36,271 bases of DNA from an uncultured Clostridia bacterium (GTDB lineage: Bacteria > Bacillota > Clostridia > Christensenellales > Borkfalkiaceae), in contig CALVWN010000070.1 of NCBI GenBank assembly GCA_944367415.1, positions 1 to 36,271 on the forward strand. The letters run 5' to 3'. Made by a program: the position numbers and the translations under genes. Within the stretch, counting starts at the first letter, position 1, and the number at the start of each line of letters is the position of its first letter. Shown here in pieces: positions 2,478 through 10,596 of the stretch. The notes under the pieces are model-generated. The model had not been told where the DNA came from. It did not search any database and saw nothing but the letters and a program-made list of their open reading frames with translations.

Positions 2478-3707
2478 TCAGACCTCCCGCGCGAGCATCT
2501 CCGCCCGCGCCTTTTCGGAAAACGCCGCAAGGCAGGGCGCCTTGCAAAGGAGCGCTTCATCCAATTCCGCAAGCGGCGTGCCGCGGCGGATGAGCGCGGT
2601 ATAGATCCCCGCCCGCTCCGGCTCGTTGACGAGAATGAATCCCTTTAATTTCCCGTCCTTGACAAAGAGACGGCGGCAGCGGTCGGGGTATGTTTCGGCA
2701 ATGCACTCACCCTCATAGCTGCCCGCGGTGAGGATGTGTGAGCCGAAGAAGCCGACGGCGTTGAGCGGGATGGCGGGTTCGGGCGCGCGCTCCCCGCCCG
2801 CCATGACGACGCCCGCGCAAAATCCCTGCGCGCAGGCGTTGGGCAGGAGAGCGAGGATCCTGCGCGTTCCGGAGGAGACGTCCATGCTCTCCGTGCAGTC
2901 CCCCGCCGCAAAGACGTCGGGAAGGTCGGTGCGCTGACACTCGTCCGTCACGATGCCGCGCGCGACGGTGCCGCCCGCCTCGCGGACGAGTTCGACGTTG
3001 GGACGCACGCCGACGGCGACGACGAGGATGTCGAACGCGCATGTCCTCCCGCTCTGCAGATGCGCGGTCTTCCCGTCAAAGCGGGCGACGCTGTCCGAGA
3101 GGAGAAATTGCACGCCGCGCGCCTCCAGCTCCCGCTGCACGATGGCGGCAGCCTCCGCGTCGAGGACGCTGGGCAGGATGCGGGGCGCGAGATCGACGAC
3201 GGCCACCCCCTTCACGCGGGCGAGGATGCCCTCCATGCACTTCAGCCCGATCAGCCCCGCGCCGATGATGAGCACCTCTTTTTCAGGGGAGAGCGCCTCT
3301 TCGAGATCGAGCGCGTCCTGCATGGTCATGAAGGTGAAGCGCTCCGGCACGCTCTCTATCCCGGACATGGGCGGCACGAACGCTCTCGAACCCGTTGCAA
3401 AGAGCAGTTTGTCGTACTCTGTTGTGTTTCCGCCCCCGAAGCATACCGTGTGCGCGTCCGGGTCGATGCGCTCCGCGCGCACCCCGAACATGGTCTGCAC
3501 CTTGTTCTTCTCATAGAAGTCGGCGGGGCGGTAATTCATGCGGGAGCGGTCGGTCGCCCCCAGAAGATAGTAGGAGATGAGCGGGCGGCCGTAGGCGGCG
3601 AAGGGTTCGTCGGAGATGAGCACGATCTCCCCCTCTTTGTCCACGCTGCGGATGCCCTCGACGGCGGAGACGCCCGCCGCGGAATTTCCGATGATGACGT
3701 ATTTCAT
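2478..3707 (-). CDS. FAD-dependent NAD(P) oxidoreductase of the glutamate synthase operon
   Basis: This 409-residue flavoprotein is of the pyridine nucleotide-disulfide oxidoreductase class (NirB/rubredoxin reductase-like). It has an N-terminal FAD-binding Rossmann motif (VIIGNSAAGVSAVEGIR), a central NAD(P)-binding motif (IIGAGLIGLKCMEGI), the C-terminal FAD motif ending VFAAGDC, and a small C-terminal domain. No redox CxxC or CxxxxC pair is seen beside the first Rossmann motif, so it is not a thioredoxin-reductase-type enzyme. The ATG at 3707 overlaps the stop of the ferredoxin gene (ATGA), implying translational coupling. By position it replaces the GltD subunit, passing electrons between NAD(P)H and the Fe-S subunits. 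The partner is inferred from the operon, and NADH versus NADPH use is not decided. Confidence 0.88.
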   Translation of the reverse strand: MKYVIIGNSAAGVSAVEGIRSVDKEGEIVLISDEPFAAYGRPLISYYLLGATDRSRMNYRPADFYEKNKVQTMFGVRAERIDPDAHTVCFGGGNTTEYDKLLFATGSRAFVPPMSGIESVPERFTFMTMQDALDLEEALSPEKEVLIIGAGLIGLKCMEGILARVKGVAVVDLAPRILPSVLDAEAAAIVQRELEARGVQFLLSDSVARFDGKTAHLQSGRTCAFDILVVAVGVRPNVELVREAGGTVARGIVTDECQRTDLPDVFAAGDCTESMDVSSGTRRILALLPNACAQGFCAGVVMAGGERAPEPAIPLNAVGFFGSHILTAGSYEGECIAETYPDRCRRLFVKDGKLKGFILVNEPERAGIYTALIRRGTPLAELDEALLCKAPCLAAFSEKARAEMLAREV

Positions 3708-4141
3708 GCGCGTTCCTCGAAGACGATGGCTTGATTGGGACAGTGGCGGACGCAGTTGGGTTCGCCGCACACGTTGTCCGTGCAGAGCTGGCACTTCATC
3801 GCGGCATGCCCGTCGGGGGCGGGCATGACCGCACCATAGGGACACACGAGCACGCAGGTGAGACACCCGACGCACTTCTCGCGGTCGATGCGGACGACGC
3901 CGTCCTCTCCCTTCGTGAGCGCGCCCGAGATACAGCGGCGCACGCAGACGGGATCCTTGCACTGGCGGCAGTTGACCGCGAAGTGTACCTCCCCCGCGTC
4001 CTCCACGCGGATCTTGGGGTGGATGGGGCGCCCCTTGAGCGCCTTGACCATGTCGTCAAGCCCCGTCGCGGCAAAGGCACATTCATATTCGCAAAGATGG
4101 CACCCGAGGCACCATTTCTCGTTGACGTAGATGCGTTTCAC
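3704..4141 (-). CDS. 4Fe-4S ferredoxin-type electron-transfer subunit
   Basis: This 145-residue, cysteine-rich protein has four groups of cysteines of the kind that bind [4Fe-4S] clusters: C11-C14-C17-C21, then CRQCKDPVCVRRC, CVGCLTCVLVCP, and CQLCTDNVCGEPNCVRHCP. It resembles the HycB/DmsB-type iron-sulfur subunits. The start is taken as the GTG at 4141, which has AGGTG at good spacing and gives the usual MKRIYVNE N-terminus. A GTG at 4153 overlapping the upstream stop is possible but has no clear ribosome site. It sits between the FMN core and the FAD reductase, so its inferred role is to relay electrons from the flavoprotein to the FMN/3Fe-4S core of glutamate synthase. Confidence 0.87.
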   Translation of the reverse strand: MKRIYVNEKWCLGCHLCEYECAFAATGLDDMVKALKGRPIHPKIRVEDAGEVHFAVNCRQCKDPVCVRRCISGALTKGEDGVVRIDREKCVGCLTCVLVCPYGAVMPAPDGHAAMKCQLCTDNVCGEPNCVRHCPNQAIVFEERA

Positions 4142-4149
4142 GGTACACC

Positions 4150-5655
4150 TCACATATTTTCGCCCGCATAGCGCACGCCGAGCAGACCGAGTTCGCGGTC
4201 GTTCAGCCCGATGCCGCGCAGCATGAGGCGGTTGCCCCGCAGCGCCTCGATGGAGTTGATGCCCATGCCGCCCATCATCTCCTCGATCTCATGTTTCCAC
4301 GCCGTGACGAGGTTGACGAGGCGCTTGTAGCCGATGTCGGGATTGAGGCGTTTGACGAGGTCGGGGCGCTGGGTGGCGATGCCCCAGTTACACAGCCCCG
4401 ACTGGCAGCTCCTGCACAGATGACAGCCGAGGGCAAGGAGCGCCGCCGTGCCGATATAGCAGGCGTCCGCGCCGAGGGCGATCGCCTTGACGACGTCCGC
4501 CGACGAGCGGATGGAACCGCCCGCAATGATGGAGACCTCGTCGCGGATGCCCTCCTCCCGCAGCCGCTGATCGACCTGCGCGAGGGCAAGTTCGATGGGG
4601 ATGCCCACGTTGTCGCGGATGCGGGTGGGTGCCGCCCCCGTTCCGCCGCGGAAGCCGTCGATGGCGATGATGTCCGCGCCGCTCCTTGCGATGCCGCTCG
4701 CGATCGCCGCCGCGTTGTGGACGGCGGCGACCTTGACGATGACGGGCTTTTTGTAATCGGTCGCCTCCTTTAGGGAGCAGACGAGCTGTCTGAGATCCTC
4801 GATGGAATAGATGTCATGATGGGGCGCGGGCGAGATGGCATCCGAACCCTGCGGGATCATGCGCGTCTCGGCGACGTCCTCGGTGATCTTGGCGCCGGGG
4901 AGATGCCCGCCGATGCCCGGCTTTGCCCCCTGCCCCATCTTGATCTCGATCGCCGCCGCGTGCTCGAGGTAGTCCTTGAAGACGCCGAACCTGCCGCTCG
5001 CCACCTGCACGATGGTGTTGGGGAAGCGGTAAAAGTCCCTGTGCAATCCCCCTTCGCCCGTGTTGTAGTAGGTACCCAGCTCCTCCGCCGCACGCGCGAG
5101 CGACTCGTGCGCGTTATAGCTGATGGAACCGTAGCTCATCGCCGAAAAGAGGATGGGCACCTCCAGCCGAAGCTGAGGCGCGAGGGTGTTTTTGAGTTTT
5201 CCGCGCGCGTCGCGCTCCACCTTCGCGCTGCGCTTGCCCAGCCAGAGGCGGGTCTCCATGGGTTCGCGCAGCGGATCGATGGAGGGATTGGTGACCTGCG
5301 ACGCGTTGATAAGCAGTTTGTCCCAGAAGATGGGATAGGGATTGGGATTGCCCATCGACGAGAGCAGCACGCCGCCCGAGTTCGCCTGCTTGTAGATCTC
5401 GTTGATGGTGCGGTTGTCCCAGTTGGCGTTGTGCTTGTAGGTGTCCTCCGACTTGACGATCTTGAGGGCGTGCGTCGGGCAGAGACAGACGCAGCGATGA
5501 CAGTTGACGCACTTCGCGCTGTCTGCGACCATCCTGCCGCTGTCCGCATCGAAGGTATGAACGCCGTTGGCGCACTGTCGCTCGCAGACGCGGCAGGCGA
5601 TGCAGCGGTCATGATCGCGCACCACTTCGTATTCCGGACTGATGTACATCTCCAT
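4150..5655 (-). CDS. glutamate synthase core subunit (FMN domain with N-terminal ferredoxin domain)
   Basis: This 501-residue protein is the synthase core of an archaeal-type GltB. It reduces 2-iminoglutarate, formed from 2-oxoglutarate and ammonia, to glutamate. An N-terminal 2[4Fe-4S] domain (C18-C21-C24-C28 and C49-C52-C55-C59) precedes the FMN-binding barrel, recognised by MSYGSISYNAHESLA, the GEGG turn, GQGAKPGIGGHLPG, the DIIAIDGFRGGTGAAPT loop and a GGSIRSSADVVKAIALGAD phosphate site. The cysteines in CHLCRSCQSGLC match the [3Fe-4S] site. The start is the ATG at 5655, which shares one base with the preceding stop (TGATG) and has GGAGGG upstream. Together with the glutaminase, GXGXG, ferredoxin and FAD subunits it rebuilds a complete glutamate synthase from separate chains. 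Confidence 0.93.
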   Translation of the reverse strand: MEMYISPEYEVVRDHDRCIACRVCERQCANGVHTFDADSGRMVADSAKCVNCHRCVCLCPTHALKIVKSEDTYKHNANWDNRTINEIYKQANSGGVLLSSMGNPNPYPIFWDKLLINASQVTNPSIDPLREPMETRLWLGKRSAKVERDARGKLKNTLAPQLRLEVPILFSAMSYGSISYNAHESLARAAEELGTYYNTGEGGLHRDFYRFPNTIVQVASGRFGVFKDYLEHAAAIEIKMGQGAKPGIGGHLPGAKITEDVAETRMIPQGSDAISPAPHHDIYSIEDLRQLVCSLKEATDYKKPVIVKVAAVHNAAAIASGIARSGADIIAIDGFRGGTGAAPTRIRDNVGIPIELALAQVDQRLREEGIRDEVSIIAGGSIRSSADVVKAIALGADACYIGTAALLALGCHLCRSCQSGLCNWGIATQRPDLVKRLNPDIGYKRLVNLVTAWKHEIEEMMGGMGINSIEALRGNRLMLRGIGLNDRELGLLGVRYAGENM

Positions 5656-6752
5656 CACGCAAGCCCTCCCTTGTCGTACAGTTCATAGATGACCGGTTCC
5701 CCGCCCGCGGGGGCAAAGACGCGGTCGAGCGAGGGCTGGATGCGCCGGATGGCGCTCTCCTCGCTCGAAATATAGGCGAGATCGCCCTTCTCCGCACAGA
5801 CGGTGGAGCGCAGCTTGAGGCGGTCGCCGAGCGCCATCAGCCCGCCCGTATAGCCGAGGATGATGGAGAACGGCCCCGTGACGAGCAGGGAGGGAAACAT
5901 CCTCCGAAGCAGCGTCTCCTGTTCGCGGGCGCTCTCCTCCTTCCCTGCGATGGTGCTCCAGAAGGACGCCGCGATGACGTGCGCCGTCTCCTCGAGCGTC
6001 AGCCCCCTGCGGCGGACGAGGTAATCGATGATATAGGTGATGACCTCGGTATCGGTGTGCAAGGTGCATTTGTAGCCGAACATCTCGATATAGCGGCGGT
6101 TGGCGTCGTACGAGGAGATCTCGCCGTTGTGGACGACGGAAAAATCGAGCAGCCCGAAGGGATGGGAACCGCCCCACCAGCCCGGCGTGTTGGTCGGATA
6201 GCGCCCATGGCACGTCCACGCGTAGCCCGCATACTCCTCGAGGCGGTAGAACCTGCCCACGTCCTCGGGATAGCCGACGCCCTTGAAGATGCCCATGTTC
6301 TTCCCGCTCGAAAAGACGTACGCGCCGTCGATCTGCGCGTTGATGCGGTTGACGCAGCGAGCGACGTACTCGCGCTCGTCGAGGTGGCTGCGCGAGAGCT
6401 TCTGCGGCAGCGGCGCAAGAAAATAGCGAAAAATGAGCGGCTCGTCGGTGACCCCGGCGACCTTGCGCGTCTGGATCTCCGAGGAATAGACGATCTCAAA
6501 GTGACGGCAGATAAATTCCTCCGTCTCCGTCTGCGCCTTCTTCCCGTCATAAAAGAGATGAAAGGCGTAAAAGTCCTTGTAGTGCGGGTAGATCCCGTAC
6601 CCCGCAAAGCCGCCGCCCAGTCCGTTGGAACGGTCGTGCATGACTTCGATCGCCTCGATCATGCCCTCTCCGCTCATGAGGCCGCCGCTGCGGTCGATGA
6701 CGCCGACGACGGCGCAGCCCGACGGATTTCTGAATGTTCCCTCTTTCAACAT
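5655..6752 (-). CDS. glutamate synthase glutaminase subunit (class II amidotransferase domain)
   Basis: This 365-residue protein is the glutamine amidotransferase part of glutamate synthase. It hydrolyses glutamine and supplies ammonia to the FMN core. The putative nucleophile is Cys13 in the NPSGCAVVGVID motif; the residues before it would need processing, as in other class II enzymes. Further class II features are RYPTNTPGWWGGSHPFG, the VVHNGEISSYDANRRY loop and the HTDTEVITY motif. The start is the ATG at 6752, preceded by GAGGAG at good spacing. An in-frame ATG further upstream lies inside the -10 box and cannot be transcribed. It is the first gene of the operon, directly behind a near-perfect promoter, and its stop overlaps the next start. 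Confidence 0.92.
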   Translation of the reverse strand: MLKEGTFRNPSGCAVVGVIDRSGGLMSGEGMIEAIEVMHDRSNGLGGGFAGYGIYPHYKDFYAFHLFYDGKKAQTETEEFICRHFEIVYSSEIQTRKVAGVTDEPLIFRYFLAPLPQKLSRSHLDEREYVARCVNRINAQIDGAYVFSSGKNMGIFKGVGYPEDVGRFYRLEEYAGYAWTCHGRYPTNTPGWWGGSHPFGLLDFSVVHNGEISSYDANRRYIEMFGYKCTLHTDTEVITYIIDYLVRRRGLTLEETAHVIAASFWSTIAGKEESAREQETLLRRMFPSLLVTGPFSIILGYTGGLMALGDRLKLRSTVCAEKGDLAYISSEESAIRRIQPSLDRVFAPAGGEPVIYELYDKGGLA

Positions 6753-6795
6753 TGCTTGCTCCTCTTCGTTCCCCTCCGACGGGGGTGTATTTTTC

Positions 6796-6824
6796 ATTAT
6801 ACTTTTCCCGCCTTTTTTCGTCAA
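6796..6824 (-). promoter_or_regulatory. promoter of the glutamate synthase operon
   Basis: TTGACG (6819-6824) and TATAAT (6796-6801) lie 17 bp apart on the minus strand. The predicted start near 6789 leaves a leader of about 37 nt before the ATG at 6752. Confidence 0.9.
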
Positions 6825-6853
6825 ATAAATGAAAACCCCCTGCGGGCTTACTT

Positions 6854-6889
6854 TTTTTGATATAAAATATAAGTCTGACTTATAATAAA
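6854..6889 (-). promoter_or_regulatory. putative regulator-binding element upstream of the glt promoter
   Basis: On the minus strand this block contains CTTATAnTTnATATCAAAAA, which recurs upstream of amt at 8828-8863. From the ATATC motif to the first base of the -10 box is 57 nt in both cases. Here the block also includes a perfect 8-bp inverted repeat with one central base (6868-6884). The position, roughly -70 to -100 from the predicted start, suits an activator. The regulator is unknown; no GlnR/TnrA-type TGTnA-n7-TnACA box is visible. Confidence 0.6.
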
Positions 6890-6891
6890 GC

Positions 6892-6923
6892 GGCGCCCTT
6901 CGCCGCAAACGGCAAAGGGCGCC
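6892..6923 (-). terminator. terminator hairpin after amt
   Basis: GGCGCCCTT (6892-6900) pairs with AAGGGCGCC (6915-6923), with an inner GCCG/CGGC helix. On the minus strand it is followed by GCTTTATTAT, so the stem is strong but the T tract is interrupted. It lies 26 bp beyond the amt stop. Confidence 0.72.
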
Positions 6924-6949
6924 TCCCGAAAATGACAATGTGCGACCGA

Positions 6950-8710
6950 TCAGACGGGCTCCTCGTCCTGCAGGGCGTCGTAGCCGCGCTCGCCCGTGCG
7001 GACGCGCACCGCGTCCTCGACGTCATAGACGAAGATCTTGCCGTCGCCGATGTGCCCCGTATAGAGCGCCTTGCGCGCCGCCGCGACCACGTCCGCGACG
7101 GGAACTTTGCTGACGACGACCTCCGCCTTGACCTTCTGCAGAAGATCCATGTCCACCTTGACGCCGCGGTAGTATTCGCTCGCGCCCTTCTGCACGCCGC
7201 AGCCGAGCACCTGCGTGACCGTGATGCCTGTGACGCCGATCTCGTTGAGCGCCTTTTTGAGATCGTCGAACTTGGACTGGCGGGTGATGATGACCACCTT
7301 GGAGAGCTTTACGTCTGCAGAGGATGCCTGCAATACGGGAACCTCCCCCTCCTCTTCCGCAGCGACGGGGGCGACGCCCTCGGGATCGAGCATCTCCGCC
7401 GCAAGAGGCGCGGCGAGGAAGTCCGCATAGGCGCTGGGAAGCCCGTGCTCGTGCTTATCGAGGCCCTCGATCTCCTCGAGCCTGCCCGCGCGGATGCCGC
7501 AGGTGTGCTTGAGCAGCCGGAACAGCCCCGTCATGCAGACGATCGTCCACGCGGCAATGCAGACAAGTCCCAGAAGCTGCACGCCGAGCATATTCAACCC
7601 GCCGCCGTAAAAGAGCCCGAGCTGCTCGGAGAGCACCTCTCCCGTCTCGGCATCCACCACGGGGTTGATGCCGCAGGAGAAGAGCGCGACGGCGATGGTG
7701 CCCCAAAGTCCGTTCACGCCGTGTACGGCGATGGCGCCGACGGGGTCGTCAATGTGCAGCTTCTTGTCGATGACTTCGACCGCGACGTCGACGAGGATGC
7801 CCGCGACGAGACCGATGAAGAAGGCGCCGACAACGTCGATATTGGCGCAGCCCGCCGTGACGGCGACCAGCCCCGCGAGCGAGCCGTTGAGCGTCATAGA
7901 GACGTCCGGCTTCTTGTTCTTGATCCAGGTGAAGATCATCGTCGAACAGGTCGCGGTCGCCGTGGCGACGGTGGTCGTCACGAGGATCTGCGCAAGCTGC
8001 GCCATATCGGTCGCCGCCGCACCGTTAAACCCGTACCAGCAGAACCAGAGAATGAACACGCCGAGCGCGCCGACCGTGAGGTTATGCCCCGGAATGGCGC
8101 GAACGTGCTTGACATTTTTGCGCACGAGCGTGGGTTTTCCGTCCTTGTCGAGGTACTTCCCCCACCGCGGCCCCAGAATGAGCGCGCCGATGAAGGAGGA
8201 GATACCACCCACGAAGTGGATGAGGGAGGAACCCGCAAAATCCACATAATAGACGCCCGCAAACGCATTGGTCAGCCAGCCGCCGCCCCACACCCAGTGC
8301 GCCTCGATGGGATAGACGACCGCGCTGATGACGAGGGAATAGATGCAATAGGAGAGAAACTTGGTGCGTTCCGCCATCGCACCCGAGACGATGGTCGCCG
8401 CCGTTGCACAGAAGACGAGATTGAAGAAGAAGGAACTCCAGTCGTACGTCTCAAAGTTGGTGATAAAATCCAGATTGGGGATGCCGACAAGGCCGAAGAG
8501 AGCGTCCTCGCCCATCAGAAGTCCCGCGCCGAGCAGCACGAACACTACCGTTCCCAGACAGAAGTCCATGAGGTTCTTCATGATGATGTTGCCTGCGTTC
8601 TTCGCCCGCGTAAAGCCCGTCTCCACCATCGCAAATCCCGCCTGCATGAACCAGACGAGGATGGCGCCGATGAGGAACCATACGCCCGTAGAACCGAAAA
8701 TACCGTCCAT
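6950..8710 (-). CDS. amt: ammonium transporter fused to a PII (GlnK-like) regulatory domain
   Basis: This 586-residue fusion has an Amt/Rh ammonium channel at residues 1 to about 410 and a PII domain at about 467-579, joined by an acidic linker. Amt features include the N-terminal helix ending MVETGF, the SLIHFVGG segment around the first pore His, and VHGVNGLWGTIAV with the second pore His. The PII part aligns with GlnB/GlnK: KLSKVVIITR, GITVTQVLGCGVQKG, then a T-loop SEYYRG whose second Tyr (residue 514) corresponds to the uridylylated Tyr51, and GHIGDGKIFVYDV, which forms the nucleotide site. Free PII proteins block Amt channels by inserting the T-loop into the pore; here the inhibitor would be tethered. 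The ATG at 8710 has GGAGG upstream. It is transcribed alone, just upstream of the glutamate synthase operon. Confidence 0.95.
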   Translation of the reverse strand: MDGIFGSTGVWFLIGAILVWFMQAGFAMVETGFTRAKNAGNIIMKNLMDFCLGTVVFVLLGAGLLMGEDALFGLVGIPNLDFITNFETYDWSSFFFNLVFCATAATIVSGAMAERTKFLSYCIYSLVISAVVYPIEAHWVWGGGWLTNAFAGVYYVDFAGSSLIHFVGGISSFIGALILGPRWGKYLDKDGKPTLVRKNVKHVRAIPGHNLTVGALGVFILWFCWYGFNGAAATDMAQLAQILVTTTVATATATCSTMIFTWIKNKKPDVSMTLNGSLAGLVAVTAGCANIDVVGAFFIGLVAGILVDVAVEVIDKKLHIDDPVGAIAVHGVNGLWGTIAVALFSCGINPVVDAETGEVLSEQLGLFYGGGLNMLGVQLLGLVCIAAWTIVCMTGLFRLLKHTCGIRAGRLEEIEGLDKHEHGLPSAYADFLAAPLAAEMLDPEGVAPVAAEEEGEVPVLQASSADVKLSKVVIITRQSKFDDLKKALNEIGVTGITVTQVLGCGVQKGASEYYRGVKVDMDLLQKVKAEVVVSKVPVADVVAAARKALYTGHIGDGKIFVYDVEDAVRVRTGERGYDALQDEEPV

Positions 8711-8769
8711 ACCTGCCTCCGAATGTTTCCGTATGCGTGCCGCGGCGCCCGTTCGGGAAATTTGACTTG

Positions 8770-8799
8770 ATTATAGCGCGGCAAAATCAAAAATGTCAA
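8770..8799 (-). promoter_or_regulatory. promoter of amt
   Basis: TTGACA (8794-8799) and TATAAT (8770-8775) lie 18 bp apart on the minus strand. The predicted start near 8763 gives a leader of about 53 nt. Confidence 0.87.
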
Positions 8800-8827
8800 A
8801 TATTCCACGCCCCTTTCACAATCGCAA

Positions 8828-8863
8828 TTTTTGATATGAACTATAAGCAAAACAAATAATAAA
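8828..8863 (-). promoter_or_regulatory. putative regulator-binding element upstream of the amt promoter
   Basis: This is the counterpart of the block at 6854-6889, with about 28 of 36 positions identical by eye and without gaps. The core CTTATAnTTnATATCAAAAA lies the same 57 nt from the -10 hexamer. The distal TTTATTAT part overlaps a terminator T tract, so only the 20-nt core should be weighted. Confidence 0.58.
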
Positions 8864-8889
8864 AAAATTCCGCACCTTTTTTTGCGGAA
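8861..8889 (-). terminator. intrinsic terminator in the amt-guaA gap
   Basis: TTCCGC (8868-8873) and GCGGAA (8884-8889) flank an A-rich loop. On the minus strand they are followed by seven T. guaA already has its own terminator 140 bp upstream, so this one implies a further minus-strand transcript or acts as insulation before the amt promoter. Confidence 0.6.
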
Positions 8890-8913
8890 AAAAGCGCGGT
8901 TTTTGACTGTTTT

Positions 8914-9059
8914 TTGAATAAGATAGAATTATTTCTTATAGATCGATTGAGGCAGGTTCCCTGGCGCGCGGCGACCCTTCGGAGCATCGGCAAGCGCGGA
9001 ACATTACACTGCGCCGCCCGTCTTCCGCAAAAAAAAAGCTGCTCTGCGCAGCTTGTTTT
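8914..9059 (+). ncRNA. candidate small RNA with promoter and terminator (unidentified)
   Basis: The 350-bp gap between amt and guaA holds no convincing protein gene. On the plus strand, TTGAAT (8914-8919) and TATAGA (8937-8942) lie 17 bp apart, and a terminator hairpin with a T-rich tail ends near 9059, giving a transcript of about 110 nt. Its GC-rich middle can fold: GTTCC near 8957 pairs with GGAAC near 9000, enclosing CGCG/CGCG and a CTTCGG loop. I checked it by eye against SRP RNA, 6S RNA, tmRNA and common riboswitch cores and recognised none. A minus-strand transcript ending at the terminator at 8861-8889 is equally possible, so the strand is uncertain. Confidence 0.25.
9029..9054. terminator. 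terminator of guaA, possibly bidirectional
   Basis: AAGCTGC (9036-9042) pairs with GCAGCTT (9048-9054) around TCTGC. On the minus strand it is followed by a long T run, ending guaA. On the plus strand it is followed by GTTTTC, so it could also end a plus-strand RNA. Confidence 0.85.
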
Positions 9060-9060
9060 C

Positions 9061-10596
9061 TCACTCCCACTCGATGGTTGCCGGGGGTTTGGAGGTGATG
9101 TCGTAGACGATGCGATTGGCGTGCGGCACCTCATTGGTGATGCGGTTGGAGACCTTCTCCAGAACGTCATAGGGAATGCGCGCCCAGTCTGCGGTCATGG
9201 CGTCCACGCTCGTGACGGCGCGGAGAGCTATGACGTTCTCATAGGTGCGGAAATCCCCCTGCACGCCCACCGTCTTGCTGTTGGTGATGACGGCGAAATA
9301 CTGCCAGATCTTGCCGACAAGCCCCGCTTTGGCGATCTCTTCGCGGAAGATGTAGTCCGCGTCGCGCAGCGTCTCCAGCTTTTCGCGCGTGACCTCGCCC
9401 ATGATGCGGATGGCAAGCCCCGGCCCCGGGAAGGGCTGGCGCTGCACCACCCTTTCGGGCAGTCCCAGCTCGGTGCCGACGCGGCGCACTTCATCCTTGA
9501 AGAGGTCGCGCAGCGGCTCGACGATCTCCTTGAAATCGACGACGGAGGGAAGCCCGCCCACGTTGTGATGGGATTTGATGACGGCGGATTTGTCCTTTCC
9601 GCTCTCGATGACGTCGGGATAGATGGTACCCTGTACGAGAAAGTCGACGGCGCCGATCTTCTTCGCCTCCGCCTCGAACACCTTGATGAACTCGGCGCCG
9701 ATGATCTTGCGCTTCTGCTCGGGATCGGAGACGCCCGCGAGCTTGGAAAGGAAGCGCTCGCCCGCGTCGGCGCGGATGAGGTTCATGCCGAGCTTGTCCT
9801 TGAACACCGACATGACTTCCTCGGACTCCCCCTTGCGCAGCAGCCCGTGATCGACGAACACGCAGATGAGGTCATCCCCCACCGCGCGGTGGACGAGCGT
9901 CGCCGCGACGGCGGAATCGACGCCGCCCGACATGGCGCACAGCACCTTTTTGCCGCCGAGCTTTTCCTTGAGCCGCGTCACCTGTTCGGCGACGAAGTTG
10001 CCCATCGTCCAATCGCCCTGCGCGCCGCAGACGCCGTAAAGGAAGTTTTCGAGCAGCTTGTTGCCGTACTCCGAATGGACGACCTCGGGATGGAACTGCA
10101 CGCCGTAAATGCGCTTCCGGGCGCTCCCGTACACCGTAACGGGGCAGGTGGGCGTGGAAGCGAGCACGTCAAAGCCGTCCGGAACGGCGGTGACGTGGTC
10201 GGTGTGGCTCATCCAGCAGATGCTCGTCTGCGGGATGCCCGCCGACAAGGGGCTGTCTTTGACGAAGGAGAACTCCCGCTTTCCGTATTCGCTCATGGCG
10301 GCGTGTTCCACTTTTCCCCCGAGCGTATATGCGATAAGCTGACATCCGTAGCAGATACCCAGCACGGGGATGCCGAGGGAGAGTACGGCGGGATCGATGT
10401 GGGGAGAGCGTTCGTCATAGACGCTGTTCGGCCCTCCCGTGAAGATGATGCCGATGGGATCGTACGCTTTGATCTCCTCGACGGACATATCGCAGGGCTT
10501 TAAGTCGCAATAGACTTTGAGATCGCGCACGCGGCGCGCAATGAGCTGGTTGTATTGCCCGCCGAAGTCGAGGACGAGCACGCGTTGATGCTGCAT
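9061..10596 (-). CDS. guaA: GMP synthase (glutamine-hydrolysing)
   Basis: This 511-residue protein catalyses XMP + ATP + glutamine to GMP in the cytoplasm and is of normal family length. The N-terminal class I amidotransferase has [15 protein letters not shown] with the nucleophilic Cys and VQFHPEV with the catalytic His. The ATP-pyrophosphatase domain carries the P-loop [12 protein letters not shown]. The C-terminal dimerisation domain ends in KPPATIEWE, the usual GuaA terminus. The ATG at 10596 has GGAGAAA upstream. It follows guaB on the same strand, 72 bp downstream of the guaB stop, with a strong terminator hairpin in between. The two steps from IMP to GMP are therefore adjacent but may be transcribed separately or by partial read-through. 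Confidence 0.98.

Follow-up and report, generated by a model that had tools for sequence, protein, structure and literature searches.

In Firmicutes, glnA and the genes for ammonium uptake are controlled by GlnR/TnrA through the box TGTNAN7TNACA. We analyzed a stretch of 36,271 nucleotides from an uncultured Clostridia bacterium (the window), in which the promoters of a glutamate synthase operon (glt) and of an ammonium transporter gene (amt) are each preceded by a copy of the same A+T-rich element. The dyad of this element shares the 17-bp dyad geometry of the GlnR/TnrA box, but the box itself is matched at 5-6 of its 8 letters at best in four promoters of the organism's own genome. This agrees with the original prediction, in which no GlnR/TnrA box was seen.

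LysR-type proteins provide two further comparisons. GltC of Bacillus subtilis is described as the LysR activator of the gltAB glutamate synthase genes (PMC6794564). The proposal made here for glt is of the same kind, a LysR-type activator of glutamate synthase, but the LysR candidate scored 102.9 bits against a GltC model whose cut-off is 350, and the box found here also serves amt, glnA, gdhA, and purA. For CcpC of Bacillus, ATAA and TTAT boxes arranged in a dyad are reported (PMC8514465), an arrangement that resembles the ATAAG-N5-CTTAT of the present element. CcpC represses citB through a dyad located at -66 together with a half-site near position -27, whereas the dyad here lies near -87 with the second block adjoining it; the LysR candidate scored 80.9 against the CcpC model, whose cut-off is 400.

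A third known system acts on RNA. ANTAR antitermination has been reported upstream of P-II, ammonium transporter, and glutamate and glutamine synthase genes (PMC3369931), and these targets are of the same kind as those of the element. ANTAR antitermination acts on the transcript downstream of the promoter, whereas the element lies upstream of the -35; because it is thus placed upstream of the transcript, the element was rejected as an antiterminator. No description of it was found in the open-licence library searched.

Judging from the sequence comparisons described below, the element is probably the operator of a DNA-binding activator that would switch on the genes of ammonium assimilation. 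The putative protein would bind from about -95 to -62, would contact RNA polymerase from a single side of the helix, like class I activators, and would respond to nitrogen status. How uncultured Clostridia control nitrogen genes that have no proper GlnR box is little known. With an operator defined, targets predicted (glnA, amt, glt, gdhA, and purA), and one candidate for the regulator, the question can be put to a direct test in a heterologous host.

The two copies in the window

The features of the glt and amt region are given in Table 1.

Table 1. Features of the glt and amt region of the window, in window coordinates
Feature	Position	Strand	Basis or remark
Glutamate synthase small subunit-like oxidoreductase	2478..3962	-	Pfam PF07992; role inferred from operon
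Glutamate synthase, FMN/FeS synthase part	4150..5658	-	Pfam PF01645
Glutamate synthase, glutamine amidotransferase part; first gene of controlled operon	5655..6752	-	Pfam PF00310
glt promoter TTGACG-17-TATAAT	6824-6796	-	11/12 consensus matches
glt copy of element	6854..6889	-	28/36 identical to amt copy; model R1 38.7 bits (training-set site)
Second conserved block ATATCAAAAA, glt copy	6854..6863	-	A27, T28, A31, and A32 invariant in 19-site alignment
Dyad ATAAG-TCAGA-CTTAT, glt copy (T-N11-A form)	6869..6883	-	Sequence; ATAA-N7-TTAT found
Intrinsic terminator of amt gene, just upstream of glt copy	6892..6923	-	Fold of 6878-6924 = -31.6 kcal/mol, z -6.0
Ammonium transporter fused to P-II domain (controlled gene)	6950..8710	-	Pfam PF00909 and PF00543
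amt promoter TTGACA-18-TATAAT	8799-8770	-	12/12 consensus matches
amt copy of element	8828..8863	-	Model R1 44.3 bits (training-set site)
Second conserved block ATATCAAAAA, amt copy	8828..8837	-	Family alignment
Dyad ATTTG-TTTTG-CTTAT, amt copy; left half degenerate, AT-N11-AT kept	8843..8857	-	Sequence
Terminator-like hairpin upstream of amt copy	8868..8889	-	Fold of 8864-8890 = -9.6 kcal/mol, z -3.3

The minus-strand blocks 6889-6854 and 8863-8828 align without gaps at 28 of 36 positions (78%), as originally read. In a control with 25 pairs of dinucleotide-shuffled intergenic regions, the best 36-mer match never exceeded 22 identities (mean 20.3). The core of the blocks, CTTATAnTTnATATCAAAAA, was searched for in the organism's own assembly (1.73 Mb, about 74% complete), and zero-mismatch matches were found only at the two window sites. 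Three other matches with up to 3 mismatches were present, each with 3, and the reversed control pattern gave one.

From the end of the core to the -10, the gap is 52 nt for glt and amt alike, so the equality claimed for the two copies holds, with 52 nt in place of the 57 nt given at that time. Counted from the start of the core, the -10 is 72 nt away in both promoters and the -35 is 49 nt (glt) or 48 nt (amt) away; the -35/-10 spacers of 17 and 18 bp were reproduced. With an assumed start site, the core falls at about -84 to -65, a position that supports the activator-like placement proposed earlier. The claim that the two units share a regulatory element and are functionally linked is likewise supported.

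Two rival explanations concern this pair of copies. The two operons adjoin and their blocks are 78% identical, as they might be after recent copying of one promoter region onto the other, without regulatory significance. This is extremely unlikely, as the element, with a spacing that matches, also stands before unrelated operons of other genera. The element could also be a promoter of the opposite strand: the plus strand reads TTGATA-18-TATAAT at 6857-6886 and TTGATA-18-AATAAT at 8831-8860, which are 11/12 and 10/12 matches lying at the same place in both window copies. Among the 19 aligned family sites, however, only two reach at least 9/12 on that strand, namely the window copies themselves, whereas the operon promoter is present in all 19 (sites that were chosen with TTGAC at 48-49 nt). 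A promoter directed the other way would not, moreover, need a fixed distance to the forward -35, and we consider this reading very unlikely.

Other candidates for the region were tried and discarded. The consensus of a sigma-54 promoter is TGGCAC-N5-TTGCA; this pattern reached only 7-8 of 11 positions, and sigma-70 promoters matching at 11/12 and 12/12 are found instead. The NtcA pattern had no good match in the promoters scanned. A plus-strand small RNA between guaA and amt was dropped, as the folding of this DNA is no better than that of shuffles (z 1.0). Rfam gave two tRNAs at the gathering score, and a permissive Rfam scan of 6700-9100 returned four matches, all far under their own gathering scores.

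Form, phase, and distribution of the element in relatives

Of 121 family genomes searched with strict filters, 25 gave the ammonium transporter and 35 gave the first glt gene. Thirty glt loci were read by eye, and the box was seen upstream of glt in 15 of them, supporting the conservation that had been predicted for orthologous glt genes. The sequence in these 15 loci is CTTATA or CTTATG; in most of them AT-N2-AAAA comes 12 nt later, and the box keeps a set place upstream of a TTGAC/TATAAT-like promoter. Six further loci have ANTAR-like leaders, described below; in the remaining glt loci, neither type was clear.

The family alignment comprises the 19 sites, out of 23 listed, that have 48-49 nt to the -35. 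The family element reads ATAAG-N5-CTTATA-N6-AT-N2-AAAA, with a left half that is often degenerate; in the left-flanked alignment, the inverted repeat ATAAG-N5-CTTAT is perfect in many sites and degenerate in others. The original prediction took an exact 20-nt core as the conserved unit, whereas the family form is shorter and gapped. As a literal family motif, the 20-mer was rejected: of 201 genomes, 96 contain it when up to 2 mismatches are allowed, and since the reversed control also matches in many genomes, this count is uninformative.

Two models were used to search for the element. The first, a matrix of 26 nt built from 16 sites, covers the box alone, without the -35. In 26 fetched loci, it gave ten matches of at least 14 beyond its own sites, of which six are upstream of type III glnA, one is upstream of glt (G116), and three are on other strands with no evident role. 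The second, model R1, is a sequence-only model of 68 positions including the -35, made from the 19 aligned sites and run over 44 chosen genomes and 151 family genomes (its E-values are rough). In 80 named clostridial amt loci, matches at E<=0.001 were confined to L094-L097, with a weak match (E 0.023) at L093, and these five loci are the ones with a 77-88% identical transporter. The best match in the other 75, with up to 4 kb of flank each, had an E-value of 0.32. As the element was found only in the five closest of the 80 named loci, it appears to be limited to the family of the window, as far as the fetched flanks show.

The distance from the box to the -35 is mostly 47-49 nt. Of the 23 listed family sites, 19 have 48 or 49 nt from the box to the -35, and the other four have 36-37 nt (G076, G112) or 59 nt (G037, G050). 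In the relatives, it is thus the distance to the -35 that is the tighter one, and not that to the -10, which had originally served as the reference point. R1 contains the -35, so the mode at 48-49 nt among its matches is partly built in. The six glnA sites found with the matrix, which has no -35, are all 48 nt from the -35, and these sites and the displaced ones give spacings that are free of the preference of R1. In a set of 52 annotated sites with a readable box, weak ones included, the -35 is 47-49 nt away in 38 and 36, 37, 57-59, or 69 nt away in 14 (for the own gdhA and for G112, the offset differs by one base according to the spacer chosen); the glt site of G116, which is outside this set, has 70 nt. 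The 14 displaced sites are shifted by about one or two turns of the helix and cluster in phase (Rayleigh p 4e-7 for a turn of 10.5 bp and 3e-7 for 11, kinship uncorrected), and 9 of them are no more than 1.6 bp from exact phase. We infer that this phase dependence is as expected for an activator touching the polymerase from one face of the DNA.

Helical phasing of an A+T-rich element in a window of 61% G+C could also point to DNA of the A-tract or UP-element kind, which would strengthen the promoter with no specific protein involved. The UP element usually lies at about -40 to -60, but the present element, at about -84 to -65, is beyond this region. The C and G of CTTAT/ATAAG are conserved and most of the strong matches precede few gene families, which also speaks against such an effect of base composition, and we regard it as unlikely.

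Predicted target genes

At E<=1, R1 gave five matches in the organism's own genome, the best four being amt (44.3 bits), glt (38.7 bits), gdhA (16.3 bits), and glnA (14.5 bits). The own gdhA and glnA copies are weak (E 0.02 and 0.06) and were accepted because their orthologues carry stronger copies. The fifth match (C8:12221, 13.9 bits) is followed by a short ORF without a known role in nitrogen metabolism.

Outside the training set, 55 matches reached at least 22.5 bits in the genomes searched, and 39 of them precede glnA (18), glt (11), gdhA (6), or purA (4). The others comprise two at dapF/ddh, seven before genes for secreted-looking proteins, and seven unassigned. In this tally, labels were assigned by hand, a second copy at G161 was left out, and one glt site (G050) had already been part of the earlier 26-nt matrix. 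The secreted-looking class was judged by eye and contains one Pfam subtilase; among the seven unassigned matches, two are at contig ends and three are without a fetched locus (G065, G072, G202). Two of the unassigned matches (G072, G202) belong to g7, a genus with ANTAR-like leaders. Pfam confirmed representative proteins for gdhA, purA, dapF, diaminopimelate dehydrogenase, and type III glutamine synthetase.

The box before purA was seen in four genomes (L299, L300, L314, L316), that before dapF in L331, and that before the diaminopimelate dehydrogenase gene in L356. With purA and two diaminopimelate genes among the boxed genes, the regulon would be wider than the entry of ammonium. A weaker match, in G029 (20.4 bits), adjoins an aromatic amino acid lyase gene (Pfam). 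In the genus of the window, boxes before secreted-looking proteins were noted at L302, L303, L304, L312 (G042), L310 (G009), L313 (G084), L337 (G117), and L365 (G185), and several of these boxes are accompanied, 22 nt downstream, by a third half-site resembling CTTATACC or CTAATACC.

The arrangement of amt varies within the family. At 6753-8863 of the window, amt stands alone with its own box, and glnA is on another contig; in several relatives, amt is downstream of glnA and no box of its own was seen by the matrix. Given that amt is standalone and boxed here and is glnA-linked and boxless in those relatives, the amt promoter of the window may be a former glnA promoter.

Leaders that resemble ANTAR targets were recognized by eye upstream of glt in G038, G109, G020, G005, G103, and G006 (L086-L091, in that order). 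They have a short hairpin with the hexaloop AAAGGC, or a variant of it, before a terminator. R1 had no match better than E 0.03 in these six genomes. For two ANTAR-like leaders, the folding is much stronger than that of shuffles, the structure being mainly that of a terminator. If the same genes are served by a DNA operator in some genera and by ANTAR-like leaders in others, this would be a clear case of regulatory replacement.

ANTAR-like leaders were also seen by eye at glnA (L174, L176, L177, L179, L180, L441), so that some genera have leaders of this type at glt and others have them at glnA. The g10 genomes (L174, L176, L175, L184, L185) have a different conserved motif in their glnA promoter, roughly TATAAAATTTCGTGATAA, at the place of the box.

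A LysR-type candidate for the regulator

The guess that the regulator might be of the LysR type was made because the T-N11-A form of the dyad is typical of LysR proteins and because the adjoining second block would allow a tetramer to occupy two sites. The dyads ATAAGTCAGACTTAT (glt) and ATAAGTAATACTTAT (gdhA) do have the T-N11-A form, a weak test with few letters, which other dyads share. Forty LysR proteins from 15 genomes were grouped, and one group (group 1) spans 14 of these genomes; the other LysR groups of the own genome are present in fewer, and group 1 alone was therefore followed. Its gene lies directly after mnmE, as seen in the upstream DNA of 14 loci, which was translated for the own genome, and is located away from glt, amt, and glnA.

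A group-1 LysR is present in 122 of the 151 family genomes. It occurs in 45 of the 48 genomes having a box at E<=1e-4 and in 77 of the 103 others (Fisher p 0.007, kinship uncorrected), and it is the sole LysR found in G050, G055, G075, G042, G007, and G027. From the 29 of 151 genomes without a group-1 LysR, 10 were chosen and mnmE was sought in them. Three, G066, G092, and G123 (L375, L373, and L374), have kept mnmE, with no group-1 LysR found; in these three genomes, R1 likewise had no match at E<=0.01, and reading by eye showed no box at glnA. In the other seven, neither a group-1 LysR nor a convincing mnmE was found, and we read the weak matches of the mnmE search there as another GTPase.

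The same operator might instead be bound by a regulator that is not LysR-type, for example a response regulator or a protein of the GlnR/MerR type whose specificity has changed, and we rate this at about an even chance. The dyad fits the geometry of TGTNAN7TNACA, with 4-6 of 8 letters in the 19 sites. In the glt promoter, it is the dyad that gives the best GlnR match. Of the 19 sites, however, only 2 keep the G of the GlnR box and none keeps its C. G213, where no LysR gene was found, has weaker boxes at glnA, gdhA, and glt (21.7, 17.7, and 17.1 bits), and the candidate is present in boxless genomes, among them G005, G006, G103, and G109, which have ANTAR-like glt leaders and keep the group-1 LysR. 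In G213, mnmE was likewise not found, so the missing LysR may reflect a gap. Against a regulator of another type, the box is absent in all three genomes in which the LysR is missing and mnmE is kept.

A LysR-type regulator, with the gene directly after mnmE as the best candidate, is thus a possibility to be taken seriously, though one that stops short of being probable. The undescribed nitrogen regulator suggested originally is plausible, and the evidence for this one LysR candidate is mixed. More tentatively still, we propose an undescribed global nitrogen-assimilation regulon that would extend over the family, in which an mnmE-linked LysR activator would act on glnA, amt, glt, and gdhA, as well as on purA in some genera, alternating with ANTAR antitermination at the same operons.

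Two further observations count against the candidate. No box was found near the group-1 LysR genes in any of 14 loci, from 300 nt before to 400 nt after the gene, where the best matrix score was 9.2. In genus g1, a glnA box was seen by eye in 8 of 20 LysR-bearing genomes. In G129 (L360; G129:C25 around 71705-71798), a weakly boxed gdhA (19.3 bits) starts directly after the mnmE-linked LysR gene.
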